This document shows, piece by piece, positions 4,463-63,519 of a stretch of 64,000 nt of DNA (position 1 is the first letter of the stretch; the number at the start of each line of letters is the position of its first letter). The notes under the pieces were generated by a model. That model was not told the origin of the DNA. It searched no databases and was given only the letters and a program-made list of their open reading frames with translations. Origin of the DNA: Undibacterium sp. 5I1 (GTDB taxonomy: Bacteria > Pseudomonadota > Gammaproteobacteria > Burkholderiales > Burkholderiaceae_D); assembly GCF_034314085.1 (NCBI RefSeq), contig NZ_JAVIWI010000001.1, positions 682,001 through 746,000 of the forward strand. Reading direction: 5' to 3'. The position numbers were made by a program, and so were the translations under genes.

Positions 4463-4546
4463 AATATACTCCCCCATATTTCTGTAAAAAATGCTCTATT
4501 GCCCAACAAAATTCTGGCGAGCTAAGATATACATGCTACGAGTATA
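4463..4546 (+). repeat. Intergenic ATATACTCC element, copy A
   Basis: One of six related elements in this window. The left end reads ATATACTCCCCC and the right end CGAGTATAT, a degenerate inverted partner. The interior resembles the other copies: ATTTCTGTAAAAAATGC after the left end matches the ATTT.TTA.TAAAAAT pattern. It sits between the 3' ends of ppa and the kinase gene, which converge. It is the most diverged copy. Confidence 0.7.
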
Positions 4547-4704
4547 TCAGTAATGCCTTGAGTTAAATTGTGCGGGGCTGCGCAAAATAGTTCAGCTACG
4601 TTGCAGCTTCTCGCCTCACTAAATTACTGCCTTTGTCCTGCGCCTTGTTGGGGCAATTGTGCACAAGTCTTAATGATCTAGCTGACTGTATAGCTAGCAG
4701 CAGT

Positions 4705-5748
4705 CTAAGGCTTTACATTAAAAAAATAAGCTACAAAAATTCCTAATGCGATTAGTACTGCAATCCAGCTCAACCAAGAAATTTTCCTCTCATCGCCAAT
4801 GTTTTCCTTTGATGTATCAGCCGCAGTACCAGCATGTTTACGTTTGCGTTTAAGGCGTTGATCTCTTTCCAATATTTTATGTAAAGCTTGAGCCATTTCA
4901 GCGGCACTACGGTAGCGTTGCGCAGGCGCTTTTTGCATGGCCTTCATTACAACCGCAGACAAACTGCTAGGGACAGCAGGATTTAATTCTGATGGCGATC
5001 TTGGGTGTTTATGAGCGATTTGATTGAGTAGTTTGTCAATGTCGTTGGATTGAAACGGTTTTTGTTGCGTCAACATCTCATACATCACTGCACCTAGCGA
5101 GTACACGTCGGTCAGTGCATTCACTTGCTGGCTCATGGCCTGTTCTGGTGACATATAGTTTGGCGTACCGAGCACATTATTGTTGAATAAGGTTTGTGCT
5201 GGATTGTCGGGATTGGTTAAAATTCTATTCGGTGCACGGGCAATCCCAAAATCAACTACTTTCGGTTGCTGGTTTGGCAGGATAAAAATATTGGCAGGTT
5301 TGATATCCCGATGAATTACACCATTCTCATGGGCATACGCGAGCGCTTCGGCAATTTTGTGAATAATAGTAGTGGTCGCAATATTATCAAAATGTTTGCC
5401 GCTAGCGAGTAACTCACGCAGATCTTGTCCTTGTAAAAACTCCATCGCAATAAATGTTGTGCCGCCTTCACTGGAGGCATCATAGATGGTCACAATGTTG
5501 GGGTGAGATAAGCGTCCGGCAGCGCGTGCTTCGTTAATGAATTGCTGTTCGCGTTGTTTTTTGTCTGCAATCCCGTGGCTAGTGCCAAGTATTTTGATTG
5601 CGACCGGGCGATCAATCACAGGATCATGTCCCAGAAAGACGGCACCATTTGACCCTTTGCCCAGCTTGTCTGTCAGATAGAAGCGCCCGACACGACGCGT
5701 TGGCAATCCTTGCTTAGACGCTGGGTGAGTTGAGGATAATGGAGTCAT
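4705..5748 (-). CDS. Hanks-type serine/threonine protein kinase with C-terminal membrane anchor
   Basis: A 347-residue eukaryotic-like protein kinase. In order: glycine loop GKGSNGAVFLG (~residues 31-41), ATP-binding lysine in VAIKIL, catalytic loop HRDIKPANIF, metal-binding DFG in VVDFGIA, activation segment end GTPNYMSPEQ. The kinase domain ends near residue 275. A Lys/Arg-rich linker (RLKRKRKHAG) follows, then one hydrophobic helix (SWIAVLIALGIFVAYFF) at the very C-terminus. The kinase therefore probably faces the cytoplasm with almost no periplasmic part, so it is unlikely to sense external ligands directly. No phosphatase or FHA partner is adjacent. Confidence 0.92.
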   Translation of the reverse strand: MTPLSSTHPASKQGLPTRRVGRFYLTDKLGKGSNGAVFLGHDPVIDRPVAIKILGTSHGIADKKQREQQFINEARAAGRLSHPNIVTIYDASSEGGTTFIAMEFLQGQDLRELLASGKHFDNIATTTIIHKIAEALAYAHENGVIHRDIKPANIFILPNQQPKVVDFGIARAPNRILTNPDNPAQTLFNNNVLGTPNYMSPEQAMSQQVNALTDVYSLGAVMYEMLTQQKPFQSNDIDKLLNQIAHKHPRSPSELNPAVPSSLSAVVMKAMQKAPAQRYRSAAEMAQALHKILERDQRLKRKRKHAGTAADTSKENIGDERKISWLSWIAVLIALGIFVAYFFNVKP

Positions 5749-5799
5749 CTATACAGGATGCCTTGCTCAAGGAAGAATTTCAAGTCTTTCCTATCACAG

Positions 5800-7014
5800 T
5801 TAATTTTTTAGATTTTTAAATGGAATCCGGTCATTCAGTTCATTAAAATAGTGCGCTATGCCATCGGTTTCGCGCTCGAGGAAATGCGCAACTGCGTCAA
5901 AAAATTCTGGCTGAACCAAATGATGTGCTGAGCAAGTTTTTTGGGGTAAAAACCCACGTGCCATTTTATGTTCGCCTTGCGCACCGCCTTCAAAAACCTT
6001 AATTTTTTTTGCTATACAAAATTCTATTGCCTGATAGTACGCGGTCTCAAAATGCAGACAAGGTACATGTTCCAGGCAACCCCAATATCTGCCGTACAGC
6101 GTATCGTCGTCATGCACCAACAAAGAAGCTGCGATGGGTTTGCCGTTACGTTCTGCAAAAATGAGTCTCAAATTAGCGGGCATACTTGCGCCTATTCTCA
6201 GAAAAAAATCTAAGTTTAGATAGGGCGAGGAATGATGATCGGAGTAAGTGTGGTCATAGCAACGCTTAAAAAATATCCAGTCGTCTTTTGTCATATTTGA
6301 CCCTGCAACCTGGCGGAACTGGACGCCGGCCTCACTTACTTTACGTCGTTCGGCACGGATATTTTTACGCTTTTTCTGCTCCATTTGAGACAGAAAATCT
6401 TCAAAATCATAGTAATCCCGGTTGATCCAATGAAACTGAACACCGCTTCTCAATAGAAAACCCGCAGCTTGTAGTAATTGAGCCTCTTCTATGGGAGGGA
6501 AGAGAATATGGGTAGATGAGTATTCTCCCGTTTTTTGAATATCCTTGAGAGCATTCAATAAAGCGATTTGTGTATGCACATCTCTTGCTAGCAGACGACC
6601 GCCAGTGACCGGCGTAAATGGAATCGCCGAGAGTAATTTGGGATAATAATGAAAGCCATTTCTCTGGTAGGCATCAGCCCAGGCCCAGTCAAATACATAT
6701 TCACCGTAAGAATGCATTTTTTCATATAAAGGCATTGCAGCGACTAAGATGCCGCCATCCCATAATGTTATATAACGCGGTTGCCAACCGGTATTGGCGC
6801 ATGCCGATCCAGATTCGTGCAATGCGTGCAGAAATGCGTAAGATAAAAATGGATTACTAGTAGTTTGCAGGCTGAGCAAATGATTCCACTGCGCCTCGCC
6901 GACATCGGACAATGAAGTCACGATACGCGTGCGATAATGTGAACTTTCTTGAAGATCTTCTTGGATCCGGTCGTGCTGGTTTTCAGTCATGATGCTCGTG
7001 ATATCCCTGTTCAT
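5800..7014 (-). CDS. FemAB/GNAT-like protein of the DUF482 (peptidogalycan biosynthesis) family
   Basis: A 404-residue soluble protein. Segments such as NPFLSYAFLHALHESGSA, YGEYVFDWAWADAY, FEGGAQGEHKMARGFLP and THSAH-like SAHHLV match the DUF482 family (PF04339), which shares the acyl-CoA N-acyltransferase fold. Substrate and reaction are not established for the family. A second in-frame start eight codons in (6990) is possible. It is transcribed in the same direction as the kinase gene, with a ~50-base gap, and diverges from nadE. Confidence 0.85.
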   Translation of the reverse strand: MNRDITSIMTENQHDRIQEDLQESSHYRTRIVTSLSDVGEAQWNHLLSLQTTSNPFLSYAFLHALHESGSACANTGWQPRYITLWDGGILVAAMPLYEKMHSYGEYVFDWAWADAYQRNGFHYYPKLLSAIPFTPVTGGRLLARDVHTQIALLNALKDIQKTGEYSSTHILFPPIEEAQLLQAAGFLLRSGVQFHWINRDYYDFEDFLSQMEQKKRKNIRAERRKVSEAGVQFRQVAGSNMTKDDWIFFKRCYDHTYSDHHSSPYLNLDFFLRIGASMPANLRLIFAERNGKPIAASLLVHDDDTLYGRYWGCLEHVPCLHFETAYYQAIEFCIAKKIKVFEGGAQGEHKMARGFLPQKTCSAHHLVQPEFFDAVAHFLERETDGIAHYFNELNDRIPFKNLKN

Positions 7015-7099
7015 TCAAACTCAACTTATTAGATTAATTTATTGAGACCTAGTTCTTCAGACTTATTTTCAAATTCTTTTAAATTTACTACAAGCCACT

Positions 7100-8761
7100 A
7101 TGACAGTAAAAGTTGCAATAGCCCAGATGAACAGCGTTGTTGGCGATCTTGCTGGTAATGCCGCGCAAATTCTTGATTATGCTCAGCGAGCTGCTGCACA
7201 AGGCGCTGACATTGTCGTTACGCCAGAGCTCTCTTTAGTGGGGTATCCGCCAGAAGATTTATTATTGCGTAGTGCATTTTACGCAAAAACGCGCGAGACC
7301 TTATTCGCTCTTGCAGAGAGCTTGAGGGTTTTAAAAGACATGCATGTTTTGATAGGACATCCTGCCGAAAATGATGGTGTGCGTTTGAATGCCGCATCCG
7401 TTTTATGCAACGGTGAGGTGATCGGTAGCTATTACAAACATGATTTGCCAAACGATATGGTATTCGATGAAAAACGGTATTTTTCATCCGGTCACGATGC
7501 CTTCGTGTTCGAAGTGAAGGGCATCAAGTTTGGTGTGAATATCTGTGAAGATACCTGGTTGCCTACTGCGCCGAAGATTGCAAAAAACGCTGGTGCAGAA
7601 GTGCTGTTAGTACCTAACGGATCGCCTTATCATATGAGTAAGCAGCATCAACGTTTTGATGTGATGCGTGCCAATGTTACGTCGCAAGGTATGTCTTTGG
7701 TCTATGCCAATCTGGTAGGCGGACAAGATGAACTAATTTTTGATGGCAATTCATTTGTGATGAATCAGGCTGGCGAAGTGTGTGTTCAGCTAAAACATTG
7801 TGAAGCCGATTTGCAGATTGTTGAATTTGATGGTGCGGCGCCCATAATGCCAATAGCGCCAATGCTAGCACCACAGGAGGTAATCAATGGCGCCAGTCCA
7901 GATGCACAGATAGATACACAGATAGAGGCGCAGGTCTATCAGGCATTAGTCTTAGGTGTGCGCGATTATGTCGGTAAGAATGGTTTTCCTAGTATTGTAT
8001 TGGGTTTGTCTGGTGGAGTGGATTCTGCGTTGGTTCTGGCAATTGCGGTTGATGCTTTGGGTGCTGATAAAGTCAGAGCAGTCATGATGCCGTCACCTTA
8101 CACTGCTGACATATCCTGGCTAGATTCGCGCGAAATGGTGCAGGGTTTGGGTGTACGCTATGATGAAATTCCGATCATCGCCTGCTTTAGTGCTTTTCGA
8201 GATACCTTAAGTCAGGAGTTTGCTGGTTTAGCAGAGGACACGACGGAAGAAAATATTCAAGCGCGGATTCGCGGCACCATTCTCATGGCTTTATCGAACA
8301 AATATGGCTCCATCGTCCTGACTACCGGGAATAAGAGTGAAATGGCAGTCGGTTATTGCACTTTATATGGCGATATGGCGGGTGGTTTTGCTGTGATTAA
8401 AGACATTGCCAAGACATTGGTATATCGTTTGTGTGCTTACCGTAATCGTTTATCACCTGTCATCCCTGAACGTATATTGACCCGTCCGCCATCAGCCGAG
8501 TTACGACCTGACCAGACAGACCAGGATTCTTTACCTCCTTACGAGATACTCGATGGCATCATGCAGCGGTATATGGAGGAGAATCAAAGCAGAGCAGATA
8601 TTGTTGCTGCTGGTTATCGTGAAGAAGATGTTGAACGTATTACTCGTTTGATCAAAATTAACGAATATAAGCGTCGTCAGGCGCCAGTCGGTATACGTGT
8701 TACACATCGTGCATTTGGGCGTGACTGGCGTTATCCTATTACATCAAAATTCCGTGACTAA
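7100..8761 (+). CDS. nadE: Glutamine-dependent NAD+ synthase
   Basis: A 553-residue two-domain enzyme. The N-terminal nitrilase-type amidase domain shows the catalytic triad: Glu in TPELSLVGYPPEDLL, Lys in YKHDLPN, Cys in NICEDTW. The C-terminal synthetase domain starts near residue 280, with the ATP-pyrophosphatase loop GLSGGVDSAL and the TGNKSE motif. It uses glutamine as nitrogen donor to amidate deamido-NAD, the last step of NAD synthesis. The start at 7100 gives the normal MTVKVAIAQMN beginning. The P-II gene follows by 50 bases, an arrangement common in Burkholderiales. Confidence 0.97.
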   Translation: MTVKVAIAQMNSVVGDLAGNAAQILDYAQRAAAQGADIVVTPELSLVGYPPEDLLLRSAFYAKTRETLFALAESLRVLKDMHVLIGHPAENDGVRLNAASVLCNGEVIGSYYKHDLPNDMVFDEKRYFSSGHDAFVFEVKGIKFGVNICEDTWLPTAPKIAKNAGAEVLLVPNGSPYHMSKQHQRFDVMRANVTSQGMSLVYANLVGGQDELIFDGNSFVMNQAGEVCVQLKHCEADLQIVEFDGAAPIMPIAPMLAPQEVINGASPDAQIDTQIEAQVYQALVLGVRDYVGKNGFPSIVLGLSGGVDSALVLAIAVDALGADKVRAVMMPSPYTADISWLDSREMVQGLGVRYDEIPIIACFSAFRDTLSQEFAGLAEDTTEENIQARIRGTILMALSNKYGSIVLTTGNKSEMAVGYCTLYGDMAGGFAVIKDIAKTLVYRLCAYRNRLSPVIPERILTRPPSAELRPDQTDQDSLPPYEILDGIMQRYMEENQSRADIVAAGYREEDVERITRLIKINEYKRRQAPVGIRVTHRAFGRDWRYPITSKFRD

Positions 8762-8784
8762 ATAGTTAGAAAATAAAACAATAA

Positions 8785-9150
<366 letters not shown>

Positions 9151-9171
9151 ATTGGATTAAACAGGTAAATC

Positions 9172-10320
9172 ATGCAAACTTTACGTCGTTATTTCTCCTT
9201 GTCGCTGCTCGCGGCTCTCTCTACCATCGTATTACCTGCTTCAGCGGATCAGGGTATTACGGATCAAAAAATCACACTAGGTCAATCGGCTGCTTTTACT
9301 GGTCCTGCTGCACAACTGGGCATCCAATTGCACGCCGGTGCCAAGGCTTATTTTGATCAGGTCAATGCTGCTGGTGGTGTGCACGGGCGCAAAATTGAAA
9401 TCATCAAAATGGATGATAAATACGAGGCCGATTTAGCCGCTGCTAATACTAAAAAACTCATCGAAAATGAGGATGTATTCGCCTTATTTGGCTATGTTGG
9501 TACGCCTACCAGTAACGCAGCTTTGCCTATTTTTACGCAAGCTAAAGTTCCTTTCTTTGCTCCTTTTACTGGCGCACAGTCGCTGCGCGAGCCCTTAAAT
9601 CGTCAGATATTTAATATTCGCGGAAGTTACTTTGATGAGACTGAGCATTTGGTCGAGCGATTAGTCAGAACAGGTCTTAAAAATATCGCTGTCTTTTATC
9701 AGAACGATGCTTATGGAAAGGCTGGTTTAGCTGGTGTAGAACGTGCGCTGAAAAAAATGAACGTGCAAATGGTAGAAACCGCGACCGTAGAACGTAATAG
9801 CACCGACGTGAGTAAGGCGATTGCTAAGATTTTGCCGAAGCGTCCGGATGTAATTATCCAGATTAGTGCTTATTCCTCATGCGCGGCATACATCAAAGGA
9901 ATGCGCAAAGAAGGATATAACGGACAGTTTTATAACGTATCTTTTGTCGGTAGCCAGGCCTTGGCAGATGCTTTAGGTACGGATGGCCCTGGTACCGTGA
10001 TTTCGCAAGTAGTTCCATTCCCTTGGAAAGCATCAACGCCCGTGGTCAATGAATACACCAAAGTCATGCAAAAAGCGGGCATTAAGGATTTGAATTTTTC
10101 CAGTCTGGAGGGATTTATTGCCGCCAAAGTATTTGTAGAGGGCTTACGCCGTGCAGGTCGTAGTTTGTCGCGTGAGAAATTGATCTCCTCCTTAGAGACA
10201 ATTAATACGAGCAATTATGATGTCGGCGGATTTGATGTGAATTTTTCGCCAACTAGTCACAACGGATCAAAATACGTTGATATGACTGTAATCACTAAAG
10301 ATGGCAAATTCTTGAATTAA
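9172..10320 (+). CDS. Branched-chain amino acid-type ABC transporter substrate-binding protein
   Basis: A 382-residue periplasmic binding protein of the Leu/Ile/Val (type I) fold. A signal peptide occupies about residues 1-25 (LSLLAALSTIVLPASA, cleavage after ASA). Mature sequence ITLGQSAAFTGPAAQLG is typical of the LivK-like family. The ligand cannot be fixed; members bind branched-chain amino acids, amides, urea or aromatic acids. No permease or ATPase genes are adjacent, so it is an orphan binding protein that must use transporter parts encoded elsewhere. It lies 21 bases after the P-II gene, so co-transcription with nitrogen control is plausible. Confidence 0.9.
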   Translation: MQTLRRYFSLSLLAALSTIVLPASADQGITDQKITLGQSAAFTGPAAQLGIQLHAGAKAYFDQVNAAGGVHGRKIEIIKMDDKYEADLAAANTKKLIENEDVFALFGYVGTPTSNAALPIFTQAKVPFFAPFTGAQSLREPLNRQIFNIRGSYFDETEHLVERLVRTGLKNIAVFYQNDAYGKAGLAGVERALKKMNVQMVETATVERNSTDVSKAIAKILPKRPDVIIQISAYSSCAAYIKGMRKEGYNGQFYNVSFVGSQALADALGTDGPGTVISQVVPFPWKASTPVVNEYTKVMQKAGIKDLNFSSLEGFIAAKVFVEGLRRAGRSLSREKLISSLETINTSNYDVGGFDVNFSPTSHNGSKYVDMTVITKDGKFLN

Positions 10321-10374
10321 AATTCTTGGGTTGAAATTGGAGTAATCCAGATTTGAGCAACTAAGATTTGAGTA

Positions 10375-11013: not shown

Positions 11014-11064
11014 AAGCGAGGACTAAAAGAGCCAACAGGCTGAAGAATGGTTTTTAAATTGCAA

Positions 11065-12486
<1,422 letters not shown>

Positions 12487-14820: not shown

Positions 14821-14935
14821 ATATCTGGACTTCAGCTGATTCGACCGCGGCGGTGAACGCAGCGGTTTGGCAGGCGGCCGCAGCATGAGACAATTAATTA
14901 AATCAGTCAGGATTTTTGTGAAACTTTCATTGAAA

Positions 14936-16902: not shown

Positions 16903-17068
16903 GCGCATATTGCGTGATGAGCTTCATTTTTCTTAAAAATAAGGTGATCAATTTTGTTTGATAAGTGTATTGGGTCACCTTGCTCAATTTATCTGTGAAA
17001 GAGACGCTGGCAGCTACAAGCTTGCTCAGCATAGCGATTAATTTCAGTATTTAAAGCTACTATTATCT

Positions 17069-17154
17069 TATATACTCCTATGGTGTATTTTTTAATCGTC
17101 CAATTAATATATGGATAATACGGGTATTTTAAAAAAATAAATGGGGAGTATATA
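17069..17154 (-). repeat. Intergenic ATATACTCC element, copy B
   Basis: On the minus strand it reads ATATACTCCCCATTTATTTT, then an AT-rich middle, ATTGGACGATTAAA, and ends GGAGTATATA. It is very close in design to copy F. The ends are inverted repeats (ATATACTCC / GGAGTATAT). It lies between the convergent 3' ends of rarA and the DUF2145 gene, ending a few bases from the stop of the latter. Confidence 0.82.
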
Positions 17155-17162
17155 AAATTCAA

Positions 17163-18460: not shown

Positions 18461-20182
<1,722 letters not shown>

Positions 20183-20195
20183 GCTTTTTGGTTTT

Positions 20196-24087: not shown

Positions 24088-24141
24088 TCACGATGCGAAG
24101 CTAATAATTTAGGTCAACTTATCTGAAGATTCGATCAAACG

Positions 24142-26985: not shown

Positions 26986-27117
26986 GACCATACTCCTTCC
27001 AAAACAAGCCGATTAATCTTGGTCTGCGATGATCGGACTTAAGATTTCTGAGTCAATTTATTTGGTAGAGGTCATTCAAAAAAAGACGCAAAGTAATCTT
27101 TCTTACAATGCGTCTTT
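26986..27117 (+). repeat. 132-bp direct repeat, left copy (tail of histidine kinase gene plus terminator)
   Basis: Matches 54,626-54,757 in the same orientation with two differences in 132 bases. It codes the last residues TILLPKQAD and stop of the histidine kinase found at the right copy, and carries the same terminator (stem AAAAGACGCA / TGCGTCTTT). Here it is detached from any kinase gene and abuts the IS3-family remnant, whose reading frame ends inside it. Confidence 0.93.
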
Positions 27118-43980: not shown

Positions 43981-44500
43981 TTCTATTCTCTATTTTTGGG
44001 AATTGATTTCACATATCGTTTTAGCTGTGCGGTGCCCGAACAGAATACACGCAGCGATGTTCGCTAAGAATATCCTATAAAGCCGCAATATTATCGCTAT
44101 CAATTTACTTGTAATATTATCATTTATTGCGTACTACGGGGATGCATACCAACAATCGATCCTAAATTGGTATGTAGAATGTTAAAGTGGTTTTCTGTAA
44201 TGGAATATGAGTTTGTTTTTTACAAACGTGTGGTCCGTTGAATTGAAGTGATCGGCGCTATTCGACTTTCACAGATGCTATAAACGTTTTTCAACGTGCT
44301 CGCCTTAAATCTTTAAAACCTTGGAAGATTTTAGCTTAAAACCTTTACTGCAAATAAGATATACTCCTACCTAGCATAATTTTCTCGCCTCTGTAAATAA
44401 TGGTCAATAGGCTGATATTTTTAATAAATATGGGGAGTATATTTATTTGTAATGTGCGGAGATGGCTAGTACATGTTTAAGCCATCATTGTTTAAGTCCT
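43981..44500. other. Intergenic region downstream of the ABC importer operon
   Basis: About 520 AT-rich bases holding repeat copy C 59 bases beyond the ATPase stop. No terminator hairpin of the usual kind is seen for the operon, so the repeat may serve as one. Confidence 0.45.
44358..44442 (-). repeat. Intergenic ATATACTCC element, copy C
   Basis: Read on the minus strand it begins ATATACTCCCCATATTTATT, has an AT-rich middle, and ends AATTATGCTAGGTAGGAGTATAT. The inverted ends ATATACTCC / GGAGTATAT are perfect over nine bases. It lies just downstream of the ATPase gene. Confidence 0.82.
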
Positions 44501-47568: not shown

Positions 47569-47610
47569 CAAGAATCTCCAGAGCGACATCAATGATCGCT
47601 CCAATTACTT

Positions 47611-47686
47611 ATAGGGAGTATATTTTATTGTCCATATAATCATTGGACACTAAGGCATTTTTAGTAAAAATAAGGGGGAGTATATG
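47611..47686 (-). repeat. Intergenic ATATACTCC element, copy D, with a flipped right end
   Basis: On the minus strand it starts ATATACTCCCCCTTATTTTTA and contains TGTCCA...TGGACA, a six-base-pair hairpin. Its far end reads ATACTCCCTAT where other copies have ATAGGGAGTAT, so the last ~11 bases are inverted relative to the family. It lies between the binding-protein and permease genes of one operon. Confidence 0.8.
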
Positions 47687-47849
47687 AAAATAAGCAAAAT
47701 TCGACACTATTTTCATCACTGCCCGTCATACGCACCAGCGAGTTGTTGTCTCATCCAGTGCGTATGACGTTTGCCGCCTTGTGTTACAGCGTACTTCCAG
47801 CTTATTTGCAGCTTACTTCTGTATCACGTCGCTATTACTGCAGCTTACT

Positions 47850-49100: not shown

Positions 49101-49277
49101 GATTGTCTACTCCAATATGTTTGGGGAATGTTTTTAAATGATTTTATTTTGCTGTCGCCAGATGTGTTGATATTTTTTTGTTCAGACACATCTGGGCAGT
49201 CGGTAAAATTGACTAAAAATGAGCTAAGTCATAAAGATCAAATTTAAAAGCGAGCGTAAAAGTGACCGATGAGCGAA

Positions 49278-52418: not shown

Positions 52419-52444
52419 GCAAAGATAGAATACTGAAAGTAATA

Positions 52445-53155: not shown

Positions 53156-54656
53156 CAAAGTTGAGTTCTCGGGGATTACTACATTGCCCGCAATGACCTA
53201 CTCGCAACGTCTCCTGCAAAAAATTCTTCCGCATTCTTTATTGGGACGATTGACGGTGGTAATGGTGGCGGGTGTCATGCTGACACAATTCGTCGGCAAT
53301 GCATTCTGGACGGCGCAAGTTCGTAAAGAATCTGAGATCGAAACTAAAGCATCCTCTCAGCATGTCGCCCGCAGTGCTGCCAGTACGATGCGATATTTTG
53401 CCAGTCTTCCATCCAATTATAGGCCCCTGACGATACAGCTATTTCGTGAAATGGGTGGTACACGTTTTTTTGTCAGCATTAATAAAAATGCGATTAAATT
53501 GAACGAGATGAGTGAGAACCGTTTAGCAACGATGGCAGTACATGATATTAAAATTTCACTCAAAGAAGAGCTGCCAGCTTTAGAAAAACTTAAAATCGGA
53601 TTTGCGTGGCCGTCCGATCTGGTCGTATCCGATGATGGCTCACAAATCAGTGAGGTGCCGGAAAAATGGGTGCAACATATTTTAATCACGCAGCCAAATC
53701 CTGCTCCTATCTTAGTGATCCAAACCGAGATGGCAGATGGTCAGTGGTTATATCTCGCGACGTTAATGCCCAACCCTTATTTTTTTAAAAGTGGTGATCC
53801 TTTTTCATCTGACCGCGTATTACTCCAGCTACTTTCACTTGCCGCCGTTTTGGTTTTATCTATTTTAGTCGTACGTTGGACAACCAGGCCGCTAGCTGCT
53901 TTATCTGAGGCAGCGCAAGCATTTGGTAACGGTGAACATACGCCACCGTTACCTGAAACCGGCAGCAAAGAATTTGTAAAAACAGCCCGGGCTTTTGGCG
54001 AAATGCGGGAGCGGATTCAGCGTTATATTGATGACCGTGAGCGACTGTTTGTGTCGATTTCTCATGATTTGCGTACACCGATTGTGCGTCTGAAATTGCG
54101 CGCAGAATTACTTGACGATGATGCTGTCCGTGCCGAGTTTCATGATGATCTGGACGAGCTGGATATGATGGTCAAAGGTGCGCTGCAATGCGTGAAGGAT
54201 AGTGATATTTATGAAAATCCCACTGAAATCAGACTTGATGCTTTATTAGGACGGATGGTAAAAGGTGCGCACTTAGCAGGGCATGAAATTTTATTTATTG
54301 AATCCGGTTTAACCGCTTTTGCGAAACCACTTGCCCTCAAGCGAGCGGTTGGTAATTTATTGGACAATGCGATTCACTATGGCAAACAGGTAGAGATTAA
54401 TGTCTCTGAACAAATCGATCATATAGCCATAGAGATCCGGGATCATGGCCCGGGCGTGCCAGAGGAAGACTTTCCCCATTTATTGGAGCCTTATGTCCGG
54501 CTAGAACATGGCCGGCATCAAAATGCAGGTGGTATGGGCTTAGGTCTGGGCATCGCTCATAGTATTGTCAAGGCGCATGGCGGAGAGTTGCGCTTAGAAA
54601 ATCATCGCGACGGTGGTTTGATTGCGACCATACTCCTTCCAAAACAAGCCGATTAA
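53148..54656 (+). CDS. Sensor histidine kinase
   Basis: About 502 residues if started at 53,148, overlapping the regulator stop by 8 bases; starts at 53,133 and 53,193 are alternatives. Two membrane helices (LTVVMVAGVMLTQFVGNAFW and LLSLAAVLVLSILVV) frame a ~190-residue periplasmic domain. Then HAMP (TRPLAALSEAAQAFG), H box SHDLRTP, N box NLLDNAIHYG, G1 DHGPGVPEED, G2 GLGLGIAHSIV. The periplasmic domain could contact the binding protein encoded first in the operon. Its last codons and terminator are duplicated at 26,986. Confidence 0.93.
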   Translation: MPSKVEFSGITTLPAMTYSQRLLQKILPHSLLGRLTVVMVAGVMLTQFVGNAFWTAQVRKESEIETKASSQHVARSAASTMRYFASLPSNYRPLTIQLFREMGGTRFFVSINKNAIKLNEMSENRLATMAVHDIKISLKEELPALEKLKIGFAWPSDLVVSDDGSQISEVPEKWVQHILITQPNPAPILVIQTEMADGQWLYLATLMPNPYFFKSGDPFSSDRVLLQLLSLAAVLVLSILVVRWTTRPLAALSEAAQAFGNGEHTPPLPETGSKEFVKTARAFGEMRERIQRYIDDRERLFVSISHDLRTPIVRLKLRAELLDDDAVRAEFHDDLDELDMMVKGALQCVKDSDIYENPTEIRLDALLGRMVKGAHLAGHEILFIESGLTAFAKPLALKRAVGNLLDNAIHYGKQVEINVSEQIDHIAIEIRDHGPGVPEEDFPHLLEPYVRLEHGRHQNAGGMGLGLGIAHSIVKAHGGELRLENHRDGGLIATILLPKQAD

Positions 54657-54757
54657 TCTTGGTTTGCGATGATCGGACTTAAGATTTCTGAGTCAATTTA
54701 TTTGGTAGAGGTCATTCAAAAAAAGACGCAAAGTAATCTTTCTTGCAATGCGTCTTT
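54626..54757 (+). repeat. 132-bp direct repeat, right copy (native position)
   Basis: Spans the last ten codons of the histidine kinase gene, its stop and its terminator. It matches 26,986-27,117 in the same orientation with two mismatches. Confidence 0.93.
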
Positions 54758-54758
54758 T
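54718..54758 (+). terminator. Intrinsic terminator after the histidine kinase gene
   Basis: Stem AAAAGACGCA / TGCGTCTTTT with A and T runs on either side, so it probably also ends the peroxiredoxin transcript coming from the other side. Confidence 0.82.
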
Positions 54759-54779
54759 GCACGTCTATTTTATGTCGAG

Positions 54780-55313: not shown

Positions 55314-56047
55314 GAATGTTCCCTTAAGGGTTGAAAAGCAAGGTGATGTGAAAGTGGAATTTTGTCAAATCGCTAGAGTCATTGCTGTAACAAGCTTGCC
55401 AGTGACCCAACAATAGATGGACTATTTTAGCGAAATTTTAAAAACGCACACGACGAGCGCCAATAATCATTTGATCGGTAGCGATTTGATCGGATTTTTT
55501 GGTATGGGATATATTTTTTTAAGCCGTTTTCTTATATCTTCCCGGCATTTTATGATTTGCTAATTAAAATACTCCCCCTCATTTCTAATAAAATCGGCTT
55601 GTAAGACAGTATTTATGTGGACAATAATAAATACATATAGGGAGTATATTTTTACGTATGTTGTTAGTACTGTGCACCAACATATAAGTCTGTTTATTTT
55701 TCAAGCTTATTTGACTGCAAAAAAGTCGACTAATTTCGTCCGTACTGATTTTTTGTGTGGGAGTATGGTGCTGCTTTATGCCCGCGCTGTTGGAGTCACA
55801 TTTCGGATTTAGTCGAGTTTGTTGTTTATTCATTGATATGACGGTTGCCTGATCGTTAGCAGGCCAGAATAATTCGTACAAGTGAGTGTTATTTGCTGTG
55901 CCATAGAATATGATCAGGCTTATCGAGCGAGAAAAATAGTACGGCTCTGCATAAATATTTAGTGATTTGCTATTTGTTCTATGCCGAATCGGCAGCAAGC
56001 GTTTCACATCATCGTGACTGAATATAAAATTTGAGTTAAATTGACGA
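55314..56047. other. Divergent intergenic region between peroxiredoxin and diguanylate cyclase genes
   Basis: About 730 AT-rich bases with repeat copy E near its left third. No open frame shows protein-like sequence; the longest ones on the minus strand have random-looking composition. Promoters for both genes must be here. Confidence 0.45.
55567..55650 (+). repeat. Intergenic ATATACTCC element, copy E
   Basis: Starts AATACTCCCCCTCATTTCTA, has TGGACAATAATAAAT in the second half, and ends ATAGGGAGTATATT. Plus-strand orientation, same as copies A and F. Confidence 0.82.
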
Positions 56048-58873
56048 ATGGAAATTCTTGTACTGGATGAAGAAGTCGCCAAGTTAGAGGTCAGCCTGTT
56101 GGCCTCGCGTGTACCCAGCCAACTTCTAGATTTGCTTGAACTTTCGTGGCATTTGCGTCAGCGTGATGCGGCGCGGGCAATTTCTCTGGCTTCTGAGGTG
56201 GAGGCTTTGAGCGAAATTGCGGATATTCCCCTTGCCGAACGCAATAGAATTCTTGGTCGCCTCGACCTGATTCGTGGTGAAGTGAAGTGGTTATTTGCCG
56301 AGCTTGATGTTGCTGAGGCGACGGTGGAGCGCGCTTTGCTTTTGTTTAAAGGTTTGGATGACGCGATCGGATGTGCCGATGCTCATTGGTTGCTGGCGTT
56401 AATCATCGCAGACCGTAGCGATCCCAATCGCCGTGATGCCGAGTTGGAACTGGCATTGGCGGATGCGCGTCGTGCTGGCGATAGCTTACGATCCGATTTG
56501 ATGGAAGCCACGATGGCGCGCTTTGCCGTGTTTCGTGATTTACATAATGCTCAGGCGCGCTGGGGAACGCGGTTTGGTTCTGATCTCAGTAATTTGCATC
56601 CTGGTCTTGCTACCTGGGTTTATGATTATCTGGGACTGATCGCTTTCCAAATCAGTGATTTTGAATCTGCCGCGACCTACCGTTTGCAAATGTACGAAAA
56701 CGCGATGATTACCGGGCAAGTGCAAAGGATCATCATTGCTGCCACGAATGTTGGCTGCTGCTTTAATAATCTCAATGATTATCAGGGTGCATTGGAATGG
56801 ATGAAACGCGGTCTGGAAATGGCGCGACCAACTGGTTGGCCAGCCAGTATCGGGCTGGGTTTGATACAAACTGCAGACACTTTACGTCACCTTGGGCGGC
56901 TAAAAGCGGCGCATGATTTATTGCTAGAGGCGCTGACGATTCTGATCCCACTTTCTGGTTCGCGTACGTACGCAATCACGCTGGAATATATGGGTGATGT
57001 CGCGCTGGATCGCGGTGATTATATTGTTGCGCTTGATACTTTCCTTGAGTTGGAACGACGTGCCACTGCCTTAAATCAATCCGACATGCAAACCATTGCT
57101 TTGCGCGGTCAGTCGCATGCTCAATTACATTTGGGGCGACCCGAAGAAGCTCTAGCTGCCGGACTAGCATCGCTGGCGCTGGCGGTCGAGCAGCGTAATG
57201 GGTTTAACCAGATTGATGCTTTACGCGTGCTGGCGCAAATACATGCACATCATTCTTTGCCAATATCCGATCCGATTTCTACGCCGACCACAGCACCAAC
57301 TTCCGCTTTGTATTATCTGAACCGGGCATTGGATGTTGCTGCCACGATTGATGGATATACCGTCCCCGGTAGTTTGCTCGATGAGATTGCGCGCGAGCAT
57401 GCCAATATCGGCGATACGGCCCAAGCCTATGCTATCGCAGTGAAAGCCATTGCCGCCCGCGAGAAAACTAATAGCGCTGATGCGACTAACCGTGCTGCTG
57501 CAATGCAGATCAGTCATCAGACTGAGCGCGCCCACGCCGAGGCGCAATATCATCAAGAACTGGCAATGTCGGAGGCAAAGCGGGCAGAGGCTTTGCAACA
57601 AACTAGTCTGACGCTTGAGCGTTTGAGTGCGATTGGTCAGGAAATCACAGCACATTTAGATGCAAACGCAGTTTTTCAAACGCTGTATAAGCATGTTCAT
57701 GGCTTACTTGATGCGACGCATTTTTCGATATTTTTAATGGAGCCAGATGGCGTTAATTTCAGCTGCGCTTTTGGCATTGAAGATGGGCAGCCGTTGCCAG
57801 CGCTGCGCGGCCCGATATCGCATCCAAGTTCCAATGTGGCTAAGTGCGCGCGCGAGCGGGTAGAGGTCATCAGAGAGCAGGCGTCGCAAGGATATAACCC
57901 GAATCAGATTCCCGGCACGCGTACTTCCTCTAGCGCCTTGTTTTTTCCTTTGACGATAGGGCAGCGTTTGTTAGGTGTAATGTCGATTCAATCACCGCAG
58001 ACTCAGGCATATGCAGAGCGCGAGCGTTTGATCTTTCGTACTTTGTGCGCGTATGGCGCGATTGCGCTAGAGAATGCGACAGCCTACCGGCAACTAGAGG
58101 CAACCTTAAAGACGCTGCGTGATACTCAATCCCAATTGGTCGATAAAAATATTGAACTGGAACATGCTTACCGAGAGCAGCAGCAAGCCAGTCTTACCGA
58201 TCCGCTGACAGGCTTACGTAACCGGCGCTTTTTGTTGCAGCATATCGATAACGATGTTGCCATGACTTTACGTCGTAATAAAAAGCGTCTGCAACGTGCC
58301 GCAGCAGAGATGCCCGCCGATATTGATCTGGTGTTTTTTATGATTGACATCGATCATTTCAAGTTGATCAATGACAAATACGGTCATGCAGCAGGTGATC
58401 TGGTTTTAGTGCAAATGCGGGAACGCTTACAAAAAGTAGCACGCGAAACCGATTACATTATTCGTTGGGGCGGTGAAGAGTTTTTGCTGGTAGCGCGTGG
58501 CACTGACCGCAGCGAGGCAAAAATAATTGCAGAACGCTTGCGTGCTGCGGTCAGTAGTCTGGCATTTGACTTGGCAGATGGCGTCAAAATCGCAAAAACC
58601 TGTTCGGTTGGCTTCGCCTGTTTTCCTTTTTTACCGGAGCATCCAAGACAGTTAAGCTGGTCTCAGGTAGTAGAGTTAGCAGATATCGGTTTGTACCACG
58701 CCAAACAAAGTGGTCGTGATGCTTGGGTAGGAATGTATGCGACTTCGCAATCCAATCCTGAGGGATTATTTCATCGTATAACGCATGAGACTGAGCAAGC
58801 TTTACGCAGTGGCGAAATACATGCTGTGAGTAGTGTAAAAAATGCGCTGACGATGAAGACGCTGACTGGATAA
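56048..58873 (+). CDS. TPR-GAF-GGDEF diguanylate cyclase
   Basis: A 941-residue cytoplasmic protein. Residues ~1-480 are helical TPR-like repeats (NNLNDYQGALEWMKRG, HLGRPEEALAAGLASL), then a coiled segment (AEAQYHQELAMSEAKRAEAL), a GAF domain (~540-685; THFSIFLMEPDG, FFPLTIGQRLLGVMSIQ), another short coil and a GGDEF domain (~715-905). The active site is RWGGEEFLLVA and the product-inhibition site RETD lies five residues ahead of it. It makes cyclic di-GMP from GTP. The TPR part probably binds a protein partner. No membrane segment. Confidence 0.93.
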   Translation: MEILVLDEEVAKLEVSLLASRVPSQLLDLLELSWHLRQRDAARAISLASEVEALSEIADIPLAERNRILGRLDLIRGEVKWLFAELDVAEATVERALLLFKGLDDAIGCADAHWLLALIIADRSDPNRRDAELELALADARRAGDSLRSDLMEATMARFAVFRDLHNAQARWGTRFGSDLSNLHPGLATWVYDYLGLIAFQISDFESAATYRLQMYENAMITGQVQRIIIAATNVGCCFNNLNDYQGALEWMKRGLEMARPTGWPASIGLGLIQTADTLRHLGRLKAAHDLLLEALTILIPLSGSRTYAITLEYMGDVALDRGDYIVALDTFLELERRATALNQSDMQTIALRGQSHAQLHLGRPEEALAAGLASLALAVEQRNGFNQIDALRVLAQIHAHHSLPISDPISTPTTAPTSALYYLNRALDVAATIDGYTVPGSLLDEIAREHANIGDTAQAYAIAVKAIAAREKTNSADATNRAAAMQISHQTERAHAEAQYHQELAMSEAKRAEALQQTSLTLERLSAIGQEITAHLDANAVFQTLYKHVHGLLDATHFSIFLMEPDGVNFSCAFGIEDGQPLPALRGPISHPSSNVAKCARERVEVIREQASQGYNPNQIPGTRTSSSALFFPLTIGQRLLGVMSIQSPQTQAYAERERLIFRTLCAYGAIALENATAYRQLEATLKTLRDTQSQLVDKNIELEHAYREQQQASLTDPLTGLRNRRFLLQHIDNDVAMTLRRNKKRLQRAAAEMPADIDLVFFMIDIDHFKLINDKYGHAAGDLVLVQMRERLQKVARETDYIIRWGGEEFLLVARGTDRSEAKIIAERLRAAVSSLAFDLADGVKIAKTCSVGFACFPFLPEHPRQLSWSQVVELADIGLYHAKQSGRDAWVGMYATSQSNPEGLFHRITHETEQALRSGEIHAVSSVKNALTMKTLTG

Positions 58874-58926
58874 AAGGTTGCCATTTTTTTGCGTCAGCAG
58901 AAAGGATAAAAAAGCTCAAGACCTTT

Positions 58927-59002
58927 CACGACAGAGGTATAGAGACACACAGGAGCAACCAATGCAGAGAAAAGTGCTGATTTTCTCTTTACCTCTTTCG
59001 TG
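58927..59002. repeat. Long imperfect inverted repeat after the diguanylate cyclase gene
   Basis: CACGACAGAGGTATAGAGA (58,927-58,945) pairs with TCTCTTTACCTCTTTCGTG (58,984-59,002), 17 of 19 positions. The 38-base loop contains AGGAG and an ATG. The stem is not followed by a T run, so it is not a classic terminator. Confidence 0.6.
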
Positions 59003-59055
59003 AGAGATTTGGATTTTTGTGTAAATTCTATGAATATTTGTATTCATCATTTACA

Positions 59056-59116
59056 GTCCTATTCTAAGTCTCTTTCTAAGTCTCTTTCTAAGTCCCTTTG
59101 TAAGTCCTATTGCCAG
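59056..59116. repeat. Tandem ~12-base repeat
   Basis: Four to five units of TCTCTTTCTAAG-type sequence (with AAGTC at 12-base steps), slightly diverged at the outer units. Confidence 0.7.
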
Positions 59117-59223
59117 TCCCATTGTCGCTAGCAATTTTCGGGTTTGTCGGCAATAATTGATCGCCTTATCAGTAGTCGCGGCTTATCTACATACTTACCT
59201 ACAATGCAGCAATAGCAAGGACG

Positions 59224-59907
59224 ATGAACACATCCACTTCGCCAGTCAAGCAAACTAATATTAAGCAAACTACTGTCAAGCTCATTGTCTGTCATGAATG
59301 TGACCTGATTTGTCGTGACCTGGAGCTGGTCGTTGGCGAGACGGCTAGTTGTCCTCGTTGCCAGGCCATGCTGTACAGAAATAGCCGGGCTACGTTAGAT
59401 CAAGCACTGGCGATTGCGGTAACATCGGCGATTTTGCTGCTGATATTAAATAGCTTTCCGCTGCTCACACTCAAGGTGCAGCAAGCCACTAACAATACAA
59501 CTTTGTTTCATGCCGCTTTATCGATGTGGAACGATGGGATGCACGCGATATCAATTCTGGTTGTCATCACGACGATGCTGGCTCCGGCCTTGCAAATCAT
59601 GATGGCTTTGTATGTTTTACATTCATTAAAATTTGGCGATCCAGATAAAGCCGTCGGGGCACCTATGAGGTTTTTACAGAAGCTGCGTCCCTGGAGCATG
59701 GTAGAAGTATTTATGCTGGGTTTGCTGGTGTCGCTGGTCAAACTGCAACACATGGCAGATATTATTATTGGCCCCGCCTTGTGGTCATGTGCTGCAATGA
59801 TCTGTGTGAGTGCGGGACTGACATCCATACTGACGCCGCGTAATGTCTGGGTCTGGGCACATCAGCAAAGCACAAGACGGACTTCTGCTGAGGTCAGGCA
59901 TGTCTGA
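59224..59907 (+). CDS. pqiA: Paraquat-inducible protein A, first half-type protein
   Basis: A 227-residue membrane protein. N-terminal zinc-ribbon-like motif (VCHECDLICRDLELVVGETASCPRC, two CxxC-type pairs; shortened here) followed by four membrane helices (AIAVTSAILLLILNSFPLLTL, ILVVITTMLAPALQIMMALYV). E. coli PqiA joins two such units in one ~417-residue chain; here they are separate genes. It works with PqiB and PqiC in lipid movement between membranes. It overlaps the second pqiA by 8 bases. Confidence 0.9.
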   Translation: MNTSTSPVKQTNIKQTTVKLIVCHECDLICRDLELVVGETASCPRCQAMLYRNSRATLDQALAIAVTSAILLLILNSFPLLTLKVQQATNNTTLFHAALSMWNDGMHAISILVVITTMLAPALQIMMALYVLHSLKFGDPDKAVGAPMRFLQKLRPWSMVEVFMLGLLVSLVKLQHMADIIIGPALWSCAAMICVSAGLTSILTPRNVWVWAHQQSTRRTSAEVRHV

Positions 59908-60559
59908 GCATGATGTCGCATGTGTAGCAGAAAACCTGGCAGGCAAAAACGGTGCCGAGGCCAATCTTGTGAGTTGCGATATCTGCGAAACCTTATGCTC
60001 GACTAAAGATGCATCGCTTACGCATTGCCCATGCTGTGGTGCGTCGTTGCATTTGCGTGACAAAGACAGTCTGGCAAAATCTGCGGCTTATCTTTTGGCT
60101 GCGGCTATTTTGTACATCCCCGCTAATTTATTGCCTGTCATGCATACCGAAACCATCTTCGGCGGACAAGACGATACTATTATGAGTGGGGTATTGTTGT
60201 TGCTAGAAACTGGCTCCTGGCCGTTGGCTCTGCTGGTATTTTTTGCCAGCATCATGGTACCCATGCTGAAGCTATTTTCAATCAGCTTATTATTGCTGAC
60301 TTGCTGGAGAAAATCGACTTCAAATCCATTACCCCGCACCCAGTTATTTCGACTTATTGAGGCGGTTGGTCGTTGGTCGATGTTGGATGTGTATGTGGTG
60401 ACTGTGCTGGTTGCGCTGGTGCAGTTTCAGTCGCTTGCCTCGGTGCATCCGGGCGGTGGCGCGTTAGCCTTTGGTGCTGTTGTCGTGTTGACGATGCTGT
60501 CGGCGCAAAGCTTTGATTCTCGTTTAATTTGGTCTGCTATAGAAACTTCTCATGAGTGA
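59900..60559 (+). CDS. pqiA: Paraquat-inducible protein A, second half-type protein
   Basis: A 219-residue protein from the ATG at 59,900. Zinc-ribbon motif (CDICETLC and HCPCCGASLHLRDKDS), then four membrane helices (LLAAAILYIPANLLPVMHTE, LLVFFASIMVPMLKLFSISL). It probably pairs with the preceding protein to form the equivalent of one full PqiA. It overlaps pqiB by 8 bases. Confidence 0.9.
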   Translation: MSEHDVACVAENLAGKNGAEANLVSCDICETLCSTKDASLTHCPCCGASLHLRDKDSLAKSAAYLLAAAILYIPANLLPVMHTETIFGGQDDTIMSGVLLLLETGSWPLALLVFFASIMVPMLKLFSISLLLLTCWRKSTSNPLPRTQLFRLIEAVGRWSMLDVYVVTVLVALVQFQSLASVHPGGGALAFGAVVVLTMLSAQSFDSRLIWSAIETSHE

Positions 60560-62300
60560 TCCAACATCAGAAAAACCAGATGGCGCAGGTGGTGCAAGTG
60601 TTCCCCCAACTGCTAAGCCAATAGCTAGTCAGCAGGCAGCAAATCCGCAGTCTGGATCTGAGCCTGCAATCACCACAAATTCTGCAGATATCCCCAATGT
60701 CAAAGTGAGGCAACGTCGTCGTTTGCCTTCCTTCGTTTGGGCAGTCCCGATTATTGCGGCGCTGATTGGTATTTGGTTAGTCGTACATAGCGTTACCAGT
60801 CAGGGGCCAGTGATTACGATTAGCTTTAAATCTGCAGAGGGCTTAGAGGCGGGCAAAACTAAAATTCGCTACAAAGATGTGGATGTGGGCCATGTCACTG
60901 CAATCACTTTATCGTCGGACCGCAAGCGCGTGCTGGTATCGGCTCAATTGATCAAAAGTGCCTCCGATATTTTAGCGACCGATACGCGTTTCTTTGTGGT
61001 CAAACCACGTATCTCCGGTGGCTCGGTATCGGGCTTAAGCACGCTGTTATCCGGTAACTATATTAGTGTTGATGTCGGCGTAGCGGAAGCGACGACGGAT
61101 GAGTTTGTCGGACTGGAAGAGCCGCCCCTGGTGACCCGTGATTCTGCTGGTCACGAGTTCGTATTACGTGGGACTCAGACTGGCTCGGTCAATTATGGAT
61201 CGCCGATTTTTTTCCGGCATATTAACGCCGGACATGTCACCAAATTTACGCTGGATCAAGACGGCAAGGGCGTCACGATCAGAGTATTTATTGATGCACC
61301 TTATGATCAATATGTGACCGCTGATACGCGCTTCTGGCATGCCAGCGGGGTGGATATGCAACTCGATGCAAATGGTCTGCGTATCACCACAGAGTCACTG
61401 ACATCACTGATTGAAGGTGGCTTAGCCTTCCAGGATCATGATGATGCGCTGCCAGGGGGTAAGCCTGCATTTGAAGGCTCAATTTTTACCTTGTTTGAAG
61501 ACAGAGAACAAGCGATGCGCGCACCGGATACCAAGGTGCGTAATTTCCTGATGTATTTCCCGGAATCCTTGCGCGGTTTATCAAAAGGTGCACCAGTGGA
61601 TTTGCGCGGTATTGTCATCGGCGAGGTCAAATCGGTGGGCGTAGAGTTTTCCGATAATGGCCGGGTGCCGCGCTTCCCAGTCGAGGTTAATATATTCCCA
61701 GATCGCCTCAGGTCCAGAGTCAGATCAGGTACCAAACCACCCGATGATGATACCGAGGCAAAAGAGCGCGCTCTGGTCGATCATTTATTGGCCAGCGGTT
61801 TGCGTGCCCAATTGCGCAGCGGTAGTTTGCTGACTGGGCAACTCTATATCGCGTTGGATTTTTTCCCCGATGCAAAGCCCGCCAAAATGGATTGGAGCAC
61901 CGCATACCCAGTATTGCCAACAGTCGGCGGCGGCTTAGGCGAGATCCAGGATACCGTTGGTCGTATCGCTAAAAAAATCGATAAGCTGCCGATGGAGCAA
62001 ATGTCTGCTCAGCTCGTACAGGCTTTAGAAAAACTTAACACCACACTAGCTAGTACTGAAAAACTGGTACGCCGTCTGGATACTGACGTTACGCCAGAAC
62101 TTACTTCCACCTTAAAAGAGGCGAAAGCAACTTTAGCCAATGCCAATGCAATCCTGGCTGAGGATGCACCTTTGCAGCAAGACGTGCGCGAATCCTTAAA
62201 ACAAGTCGCCAAATCTGCCCGAGCCCTGGCTAATCTGGCCGATATGTTAGAGCGCCATCCTGAAGCGCTGCTCTTTGGCAAACAAAAGGTAAAGCCATGA
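60552..62300 (+). CDS. pqiB: PqiB, MCE-domain lipid transport protein
   Basis: A 582-residue protein. A long polar, Pro/Ala-rich cytoplasmic N-terminus (~55 residues), one membrane helix (FVWAVPIIAALIGIWLVVHSV), then three MCE domains (start segments ITISFKSAEGLEAGKTKIRY; HEFVLRGTQTGSVNYGSPIFF; NFLMYFPESLRGLSKGAPVDL) and a C-terminal helix region (TLKEAKATLANANAIL). MCE hexamers stack into a tube across the periplasm to carry phospholipid. Three domains is the PqiB number, not the seven of YebT/LetB. Coupled to pqiC by ATGA. Confidence 0.94.
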   Translation: MSDPTSEKPDGAGGASVPPTAKPIASQQAANPQSGSEPAITTNSADIPNVKVRQRRRLPSFVWAVPIIAALIGIWLVVHSVTSQGPVITISFKSAEGLEAGKTKIRYKDVDVGHVTAITLSSDRKRVLVSAQLIKSASDILATDTRFFVVKPRISGGSVSGLSTLLSGNYISVDVGVAEATTDEFVGLEEPPLVTRDSAGHEFVLRGTQTGSVNYGSPIFFRHINAGHVTKFTLDQDGKGVTIRVFIDAPYDQYVTADTRFWHASGVDMQLDANGLRITTESLTSLIEGGLAFQDHDDALPGGKPAFEGSIFTLFEDREQAMRAPDTKVRNFLMYFPESLRGLSKGAPVDLRGIVIGEVKSVGVEFSDNGRVPRFPVEVNIFPDRLRSRVRSGTKPPDDDTEAKERALVDHLLASGLRAQLRSGSLLTGQLYIALDFFPDAKPAKMDWSTAYPVLPTVGGGLGEIQDTVGRIAKKIDKLPMEQMSAQLVQALEKLNTTLASTEKLVRRLDTDVTPELTSTLKEAKATLANANAILAEDAPLQQDVRESLKQVAKSARALANLADMLERHPEALLFGKQKVKP

Positions 62301-63016
62301 TGAAGAAAAATATGATGAGTAAAATAATGATGGCTAAAGTGTTGGTGAGCAGAGTCGTGGCTTCGGTTTTAAATATTCAGGCTCGCAAAGCGCAAGCATC
62401 AAAAATCATTTTGACGCTTTTTACTTTAGCGCTGACAGCATGTGCCACGCCCTACACCGAGCGTTACTATCAACTTACCTATCCGCTCAATAATACAAGC
62501 GGTGCACAGGCTGACGACGCTAACGCCGCCAAAGTCACCTATGAGTTAATCGTGGGTGATGTGCGTATTCCGGATTCGATCAACAGAAACCAATTGGTCG
62601 TCCAAAAATCGGCGACAGAATCGGTCATCGCAGATGATCAGCGTTGGGTCGCATTACTGGACGAGCAGATTGGGCAGGCGGTAGTTGCCAATCTGCGAAG
62701 CCAGTTGCCTGGGGCGTGGATTGCAAACAGGGTTGCTGTCAGCAATACCAGTGCAGCCGGACAAAATTTGCCGCGCTACCATTTGGCTATACAAGTAGCC
62801 CAGCTATTGATACAGAGCGGAGATAAGGTGACATTAGAGGCAATCTGGATACTACAAGATGGCAGTAAAAATACACTCAAGCGCGAGCGCACTGCCATCA
62901 CCGTCCCTGTCAGCGGTGCAGGTTACGATCCGATTGCACCCGCTGTGTCTGAGTCAGTCCGGCAATTATCCGAGCAAATAGCCAAAGGCATGTTAGCTGC
63001 CAGAGCGACTCAATAG
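62297..63016 (+). CDS. pqiC: PqiC, outer-membrane lipoprotein of the Pqi system
   Basis: A 239-residue protein with an unusually long N-terminus (~37 residues) before a lipobox LTAC (Cys at about residue 50) in FTLALTACATPYTERYYQL. A later ATG or other start would give a normal lipoprotein leader. The domain is the ABC-type transport auxiliary lipoprotein family (YELIVGDVRIPDSINRNQLV, ADDQRWVALLDEQIGQAVVA). It docks the PqiB tube at the outer membrane. Start overlaps the pqiB stop. Confidence 0.88.
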   Translation: MMKKNMMSKIMMAKVLVSRVVASVLNIQARKAQASKIILTLFTLALTACATPYTERYYQLTYPLNNTSGAQADDANAAKVTYELIVGDVRIPDSINRNQLVVQKSATESVIADDQRWVALLDEQIGQAVVANLRSQLPGAWIANRVAVSNTSAAGQNLPRYHLAIQVAQLLIQSGDKVTLEAIWILQDGSKNTLKRERTAITVPVSGAGYDPIAPAVSESVRQLSEQIAKGMLAARATQ

Positions 63017-63519
63017 CATTGGTGCAGGTATCTCGGTTAAATAAACTTTATGAGCTGCGTTTACTCGTCTCTATTGAATATACTCCCCATTATTTTTTAC
63101 TAATCTGCCTTATAAGGCAGTAAATGATTGGACGATTAAATTATACTAATTGGGAGTATAGGAAATACTTGTATGAATTAAACTCCGTCGAAAGGCGGAA
63201 ATCATATGCAAACTAGAAGACTTATATGTGTCGTCAGGCGTATTTCTAATGTGAGAGCAGACTGCATTTTTCTTCTTCATCCTCTTTAATAACTCGCTTA
63301 ATACTTCGCTAAAAATAAAACTTGTAGATGTCATTTTCAGTTCGACGATGCGCAAGACACTCTGTTGGAATCCGGTCAAATTGAACTGAAATAAAAAGAC
63401 GATACGTCTTCGTTTAACAATATAGTTGTGAAGTATATTTTTTGTCTGCGACTTATCTTGCCTGATCTAAGTTAAGAAGGTTTTTGATGGGTTCGTTCTA
63501 TCTCTAACTGGAGTAGTCT
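63017..63519. other. Intergenic region between pqiC and the amidase gene
   Basis: About 500 AT-rich bases with repeat copy F. A ribosome site CTGGAG lies before the amidase ATG. Nothing else is recognised. Confidence 0.45.
63077..63161 (+). repeat. Intergenic ATATACTCC element, copy F
   Basis: The most regular copy: starts ATATACTCCCCATTATTTTTT, has a perfect palindrome CTGCCTTATAAGGCAG in the middle, then GATTGGACGATTAAATTATA and the end TTGGGAGTATA. It follows the pqi operon. Confidence 0.85.

Follow-up and report, generated by a model that had tools for sequence, protein, structure and literature searches.

Two kinds of short bacterial repeats come closest to the element family described here. 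TA-ended bacterial MITEs, among them Correia/NEMIS, ERIC/RU-1 and RUP, are, as described in PMC2229807, non-coding, A+T-rich, intergenic sequences of less than 200 bp, which bear TA in their inverted ends, fold from the 5' to the 3' end and occur in many copies. REP, BIME and REPIN elements, according to PMC8266576, are extragenic palindromic elements of 20-50 bp, present in the hundreds 3' of genes and mostly carrying a GTAG tag. When compared by description, the Undibacterium element resembles the former in all these traits, being a short non-coding unit whose terminal inverted repeats end in TA, and shares with the latter its hundreds of palindromic copies 3' of genes. By analogy, its build is that of a TA-ended bacterial MITE (PMC2229807 and the review PMC10969869), while its behaviour looks like that of a long-resident REP/BIME. 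Unlike those MITEs, it is shorter, its orthologous sites are retained genus-wide with constrained boxes, and its type of inner hairpin depends on the lineage.

The window, i.e., the whole 64,000-nucleotide stretch of Undibacterium sp. 5I1 (genome G000) that was analysed, contains six copies (A to F), found at the positions, on the strands and with the ends that an earlier note had read from the letters. For the search, a covariance model (R1) was built from 112 copies (set A2), the members of which had been picked by their ends. Without filtering, R1 gave 11 matches with E≤1 in the window, all at the six places: six on the element strand and five at the same places on the opposite strand. On the plus strand lie copies A (4462-4549; 56.2 bits), E (55565-55651; 60 bits), which is the sole one of the six between divergent genes, and F (63076-63163; 65.1 bits); on the minus strand lie copies B (17068-17155; 76.3 bits), C (44357-44444; 61.1 bits) and D (47602-47687; 49.8 bits). 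The inverted ends reported for the six were present at all of these places, but the right end of copy A is imperfect (ACGAGTATAT). Allowing at most one mismatch, the left box ATATACTCCC occurs 12 times in the window, compared with a mean of 1.98 in 100 shuffles, and the motif TGGAC(G/A)AT.A was confirmed in four of the six copies (B, D, E and F). The window also holds an unrelated 132-nt direct repeat, 98% identical (26986-27117 and 54626-54757).

Far from the fewer than about ten copies without conserved ends at which the earlier note would have given up the family, R1 matched all 150 scored of the 2,654 first-look candidates in G000, with E values of 2e-8 or better. These best 150 candidates were all located on the chromosome and none on the 171 kb second replicon (C2), where about five were expected; for comparison, up to 103 candidates were scored per congener and up to 30 per genome of the family. 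The pattern TATACTCCC-N50-75-GGAGTATA had 87 forward and 84 reverse matches in the 4.88 Mb genome, while its reversed control had none. Based on 35 R1 matches (E≤1e-5) in 444 kb, which comprised 19 evenly spaced chromosomal stretches and the window (the even sample), we estimate about 370 copies per chromosome. Rfam matched only tRNA in the window, and its one weak match in ten element loci lay away from the element. Plasmid and phage records contained no match to copy B, and no paper on these elements was found among the top matches listed for literature on Undibacterium or its family together with repeats.

The copies are nearly uniform in size: 121 of 125 measured 80-83 bp, although 67-92 bp was permitted, and three of the remaining four came from Ramlibacter. 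In the consensus, ATATACTCCCC is followed by a T tract, an A tract, the inner hairpin, AAAATATAC, 5-8 variable bases and the right end GAGTATAT; the left box is ATATACTCCC, the inner box is ATATAC, and the inner hairpin of G000 reads TTGTCCA-N9-TGGACAA. In copy F (plus strand), these parts correspond to the left box at 63078-63087, the TGGAC motif of the 3' hairpin arm at 63129-63133, an inner box (here TTATAC) at 63141-63146, and the right end, inverted relative to the left box, at 63152-63161. The left-end ATACTCCC was present in 35 of 35 even-sample copies. Because R1 weighted both ends equally, the right end serves as an internal control for the left one, and it was degenerate in many of these copies, with the three C-G pairs joining the two ends holding in 30, 21 and 10 of the 35. 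The flanks are A+T-rich for about seven bases on each side. In agreement with the earlier note, no target duplication of at least 3 bp was detectable in 125 copies, a possible difference from the TA-ended MITEs; a TA or TATA duplication would hide in the palindromic ends. Shorter forms of 64-73 bp occur in G000 (L229 6041-6111 and 9402-9474; L235 12081-12144), and an 84 bp form occurs in G034 (L250 881-964). In several of these shorter or variant forms, the left end is seemingly inverted, as if by strand switching at palindromes.

Comparison of sister genomes showed that the copies are old residents without turnover between sister species. All 19 pattern-chosen copies of G031 that had a place in the G000 stretches compared were shared, including eight at G000 places that had not been chosen for a copy; in 11 of these 19 pairs, the G000 member was also found by the pattern. 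Copies B and F of the window have orthologues in G031 (L071 and L148, respectively), and copy D has a counterpart there from which it differs in its right end and outer flank. Copy C is not comparable with G031, because the G031 sequence beyond the neighbouring gene is unrelated and contains no element. For U. aquatile and U. rivi, inspection by eye of the three largest contig pairs, with one cluster left out, gave 35 of 37 U. aquatile places with a collinear U. rivi partner on the expected strand. One of the two unpaired places aligns with a counterpart (92% over 4 kb) in which the element is present below threshold, and the other (L368) lies within 590 bp that have been replaced by about 8 kb. 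Recent transposition was therefore rejected, since no empty site was seen in either comparison (G031 with G000, U. rivi with U. aquatile), a further possible difference from the TA-ended MITEs.

Sharing extends to distant groups. By matching proteins on both sides, a count by eye gave about 20 common sites in a set of 303 element records, in which some copies are entered twice, and 19 of these sites kept one orientation. The locus L220 is common to G016, G014, G033 and, weakly, G034 (E 0.19), and between G016 and G014 both of its ends differ by a change from T:A to C:G. Counter to deep sharing, the corresponding places in G033 and G014 hold neither copy C nor copy D.

The 29 ortholog pairs (19 from G031/G000 and 10 from U. 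rivi/U. aquatile) were used to compare rates of change along the element. The left box had 3 changes in 290 positions and the inner ATATAC box had 2 in 174 (p=4e-7), while the right 11 positions had 14 in 317, the remaining interior 173 in 1,595 and the flanks 387 in 3,290. The constraint on the inner box is free of choosing bias, because this box lies outside the pattern by which copies were chosen. In 12 pairs, the pattern had no part in choosing the partner (one of these partners, L266, was located by R1); there, the left end had 5 changes in 132 positions, a weaker signal (p=0.003), and the right end had 9 in 130, which is not significant (p=0.09). When all pairs were taken together, indels were less frequent in elements (14 in 2,405 vs 71 in 5,508, p=0.004), but the direction was opposite in the few pairs from places that had not been selected for containing a copy (6 in 667 vs 5 in 1,493). 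Since the boxes hardly change while the flanks do, these sequence comparisons point to purifying selection on the left and inner boxes rather than recent spread. Of the two explanations that the earlier note had offered for the constant ends and length, selection is thus supported, given that orthologous copies keep their boxes, whereas recent spread does not agree with the 19 of 19 and 35 of 37 shared places.

The inner hairpin is typed by lineage. Among 119 distinct copies from G000/G031, 100 carried GTCCA or TGGAC alone, 2 carried both types and 17 carried neither, while in the group of G014, G016 and G036, 30 of 32 copies had CGCA or TGCG and none had GTCCA. At the six sites common to G000/G031 and the G014, G033 and G035 groups, all six G000/G031 copies were of the GTCCA type and five of the six partners were of the CGCA type, the sixth being unclassed. 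Across lineages, with relatedness not controlled, 85 cells changed on both sides of the inner hairpin compared with 43 in shuffled data, and the score was 0.145 compared with 0.092, neither of which was reached in any of 500 shuffles. The two-sided signal was weak within G000, and the inner-hairpin pairs with two-sided change (8 of 8) were not above shuffles. That both arms change in step with the rest of the genome suggests either a coevolving trans-acting factor or replacement of hairpins from within the genome.

Such replacement would be expected of a purely selfish MITE family, in which the ends meet the needs of the TA-targeting transposase that spreads it and old copies look conserved because active ones overwrite them by conversion or re-insertion. 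This reading is in keeping with the TA-ended inverted repeats, A+T-richness and size below 200 bp, all known from bacterial MITEs as PMC2229807 describes them, as well as with the high copy number in one lineage and with interior types that are lineage-wide even at shared sites, for which gene conversion or re-insertion would give the same result. We nevertheless consider it rather unlikely, because sister species show no turnover, the orthologue interiors differ about as much as the flanks, which whole-copy overwriting would not leave, and the element loci examined yielded neither a longer element that shares these ends nor a convincing pair of solitary ends separated by 0.3-4 kb. The element has the look of a small-transposon relic, yet its key boxes, and many of the sites it occupies in the chromosome, have long been kept, and it probably has a function for the bacterium.

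The position of the copies relative to genes was then considered. As the earlier note had held, they lie outside genes: none of 109 copy records had its midpoint in a gene called by our own simple hexamer caller (73 pattern-chosen and 36 even-sample records, the window's six included and a few counted twice). Of the 36 even-sample copies, 22 were in tandem gaps, 10 in convergent gaps, 1 in a divergent gap and 3 at edges, compared with 103 tandem, 36 convergent and 36 divergent background gaps of at least 110 bp, so that divergent gaps are depleted of copies (1/33; p=0.0005 by length and 0.005 by count). The pattern-chosen set of 73 was distributed as 45 tandem, 19 convergent, 4 divergent and 5 at edges. 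This context fits promoter avoidance and a function independent of the transcribed strand. In G000, the copy strand was linked to GC skew (52/23 vs 9/22, p=2e-4), the corresponding gene counts being 108/76 and 28/39, but the link was missing in G014 (23/28) and G016 (19/14), and replication-linked orientation was set aside for this reason. The gyrB gene at 3.55 Mb in G000 agrees with an origin at the skew minimum.

An RNA-level role was also weighed, whereby 3' or intercistronic hairpins would shield, process or terminate mRNAs, a role that has been proposed for REPs. All eight copies examined folded better than all 200 shuffles, in 23 pairs the folds were preserved a little better than random change would leave them (p=0.011), and within tandem gaps most copies lay closer to the stop of the upstream gene (34 of 45 in the pattern set and 16 of 22 in the even sample). 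Two U. rivi copies (L034 and L072), with a strong inner hairpin and a T run, are also terminator-like. However, the orientation to tandem genes was inconsistent (16 same and 29 opposite in the pattern set, 13 and 9 in the even sample, 29 and 38 in total), the left CCC is kept where its pairing is lost, and none of the four copies C-F coincided with any of the 26 terminator-like sites in the 44-64 kb part of the window. We therefore regard an RNA-level element as distinctly unlikely. The promoter that the earlier note had suspected inside copy F was not borne out either, since no promoter-like site lies in F; some such sites overlap copies C, D and E, with a total in 44-64 kb (31) close to that of shuffled sequence (31.6). 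Canonical promoters or terminators are thus no general feature of the elements.

A further candidate is a REP/REPIN-type element moved by a RAYT (Y1) transposase acting on single-stranded DNA. Y1 transposase genes were found in 42 of 43 congeners, an element lies beside one RAYT-like Y1 gene at a site shared by G000, G031 and G024 (L292 2640-2721, L293 1073-1159 and L301 2531-2617), and the lack of duplications of at least 3 bp would also agree. On the other hand, the Y1 gene is also present in element-free species, and the association is limited to 3 of 14 element-rich genomes, with one locus each. Unlike REPs in the account of PMC8266576, the element measures about 82 bp instead of 20-50 and has no GTAG in the consensus, be it of the 112 copies or of the 35 even-sample copies. 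Hence, neither REP membership nor a RAYT link is supported, and we hold this origin to be very improbable. No mobiliser of the elements was identified among the Y1 genes and element loci examined.

Integron attC sites, which are imperfect palindromes of similar size, were compared as well. A further likeness is a cluster of same-strand elements in U. aquatile (L252 4359-15686, six matches) and U. rivi (L253 4401-12631, four matches), whereas Undibacterium copies are mostly scattered singly, and their ends presumably lack the attC core. An integron array was rejected, as the 324-aa gene near the cluster encodes a 2-hydroxyacid dehydrogenase and not an integrase. Within the cluster, the flanking sequence is also repeated and different small genes (one with DUF1877) lie between the elements, giving the appearance of a cassette-like, fast-changing array.

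The family is largely confined to Undibacterium. R1 had matches in 25 of 43 congeners, of which 15 had at least 16 and 10 had 1-4, and the 18 congeners without any match indicate that the family is dispensable. Most of the at least 80 records listed with the pattern were from Undibacterium as well. At the family level, 11 of 145 genomes and 3 of 44 genera had an R1 match, and the copies of a second genus (g13) are without the right GGG. At the order level, a looser pattern was found in 19 of 399 genomes, four of them from Undibacterium. The remaining 15 had one or two places each, which is the control level, and several of these by eye resemble one tRNA gene. Beyond the family, matches were at chance level except for three look-alikes in one Ramlibacter genome; these elements of Ramlibacter sp. 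H39-3-26 (L028, L052 and L124) measure 72-73 bp and have the same ends with a different middle. In a gyrB tree, which covered 38 of the 43 genomes and in which one row (G032) is badly placed, rich and poor lineages are interleaved, with seven changes, at least three of them forced by supported branches.

One locus stands apart in this distribution. The gap between nagB-II and a sugar-transporter binding-protein gene holds a copy in 11 species, which came to notice through an R1 match, and in 8 of the 10 species with 1-4 matches this copy is the only one. At this locus, inspection by eye placed the right end GGGGAG immediately ahead of the transporter gene (L327 1507-1588; counterparts L321, L322, L323, L325, L329 and L330). 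In G029 (L330), GGGGAG is six bases before an ATG, and for this reason it could be a candidate ribosome-binding site masked by the outer stem.

Overall, our preferred explanation, put forward tentatively and at something short of an even chance, is an old TA-ended family of dumbbell-forming elements of about 80-83 bp, a lineage-restricted variant of the MITE-like kind, that has been domesticated by the lineage, most likely as a DNA site. The elements have a near-fixed length and conserved boxes, lie on the 3' side of genes, are inherited vertically and carry the hairpin of their own lineage at shared sites; beyond this, we infer a trans-acting factor, an effect on genes and a copying mechanism. 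Each copy would be a putative site of this factor, with one contact at ATATACTCCC and another some 63 bp further along, at the palindrome ATATAC-N7/8-GTATAT. Given that gene orientation is inconsistent and the left CCC stays where its partner GGG is lost, this factor most likely reads DNA, either double-stranded or extruded, and not one RNA strand. The inner hairpin may be the specificity part that drifts with the factor. As a best guess, the elements may be used at gene ends in a REP/BIME-like manner, for transcript-end protection or for supercoil or nucleoid organisation, and the copying that once spread them would now be nearly silent. A more specific version, which we consider rather unlikely, is that several hundred selected cis elements of mobile origin coevolve with one trans-acting factor, the inner hairpin shifting specificity in step lineage-wide, and that the nagB-II gap represents an ancestral site, retained in species that have lost the other copies.

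The usual view of short bacterial repeats is that they are selfish debris, whereas the copies described here are traceable site by site across species, so that host use of such repeats becomes measurable. The nagB-II gap offers one defined locus for testing the host function of the elements. If the inner hairpin indeed tracks a trans-acting factor, the family would represent a natural experiment in which hundreds of sites coevolve with one protein.
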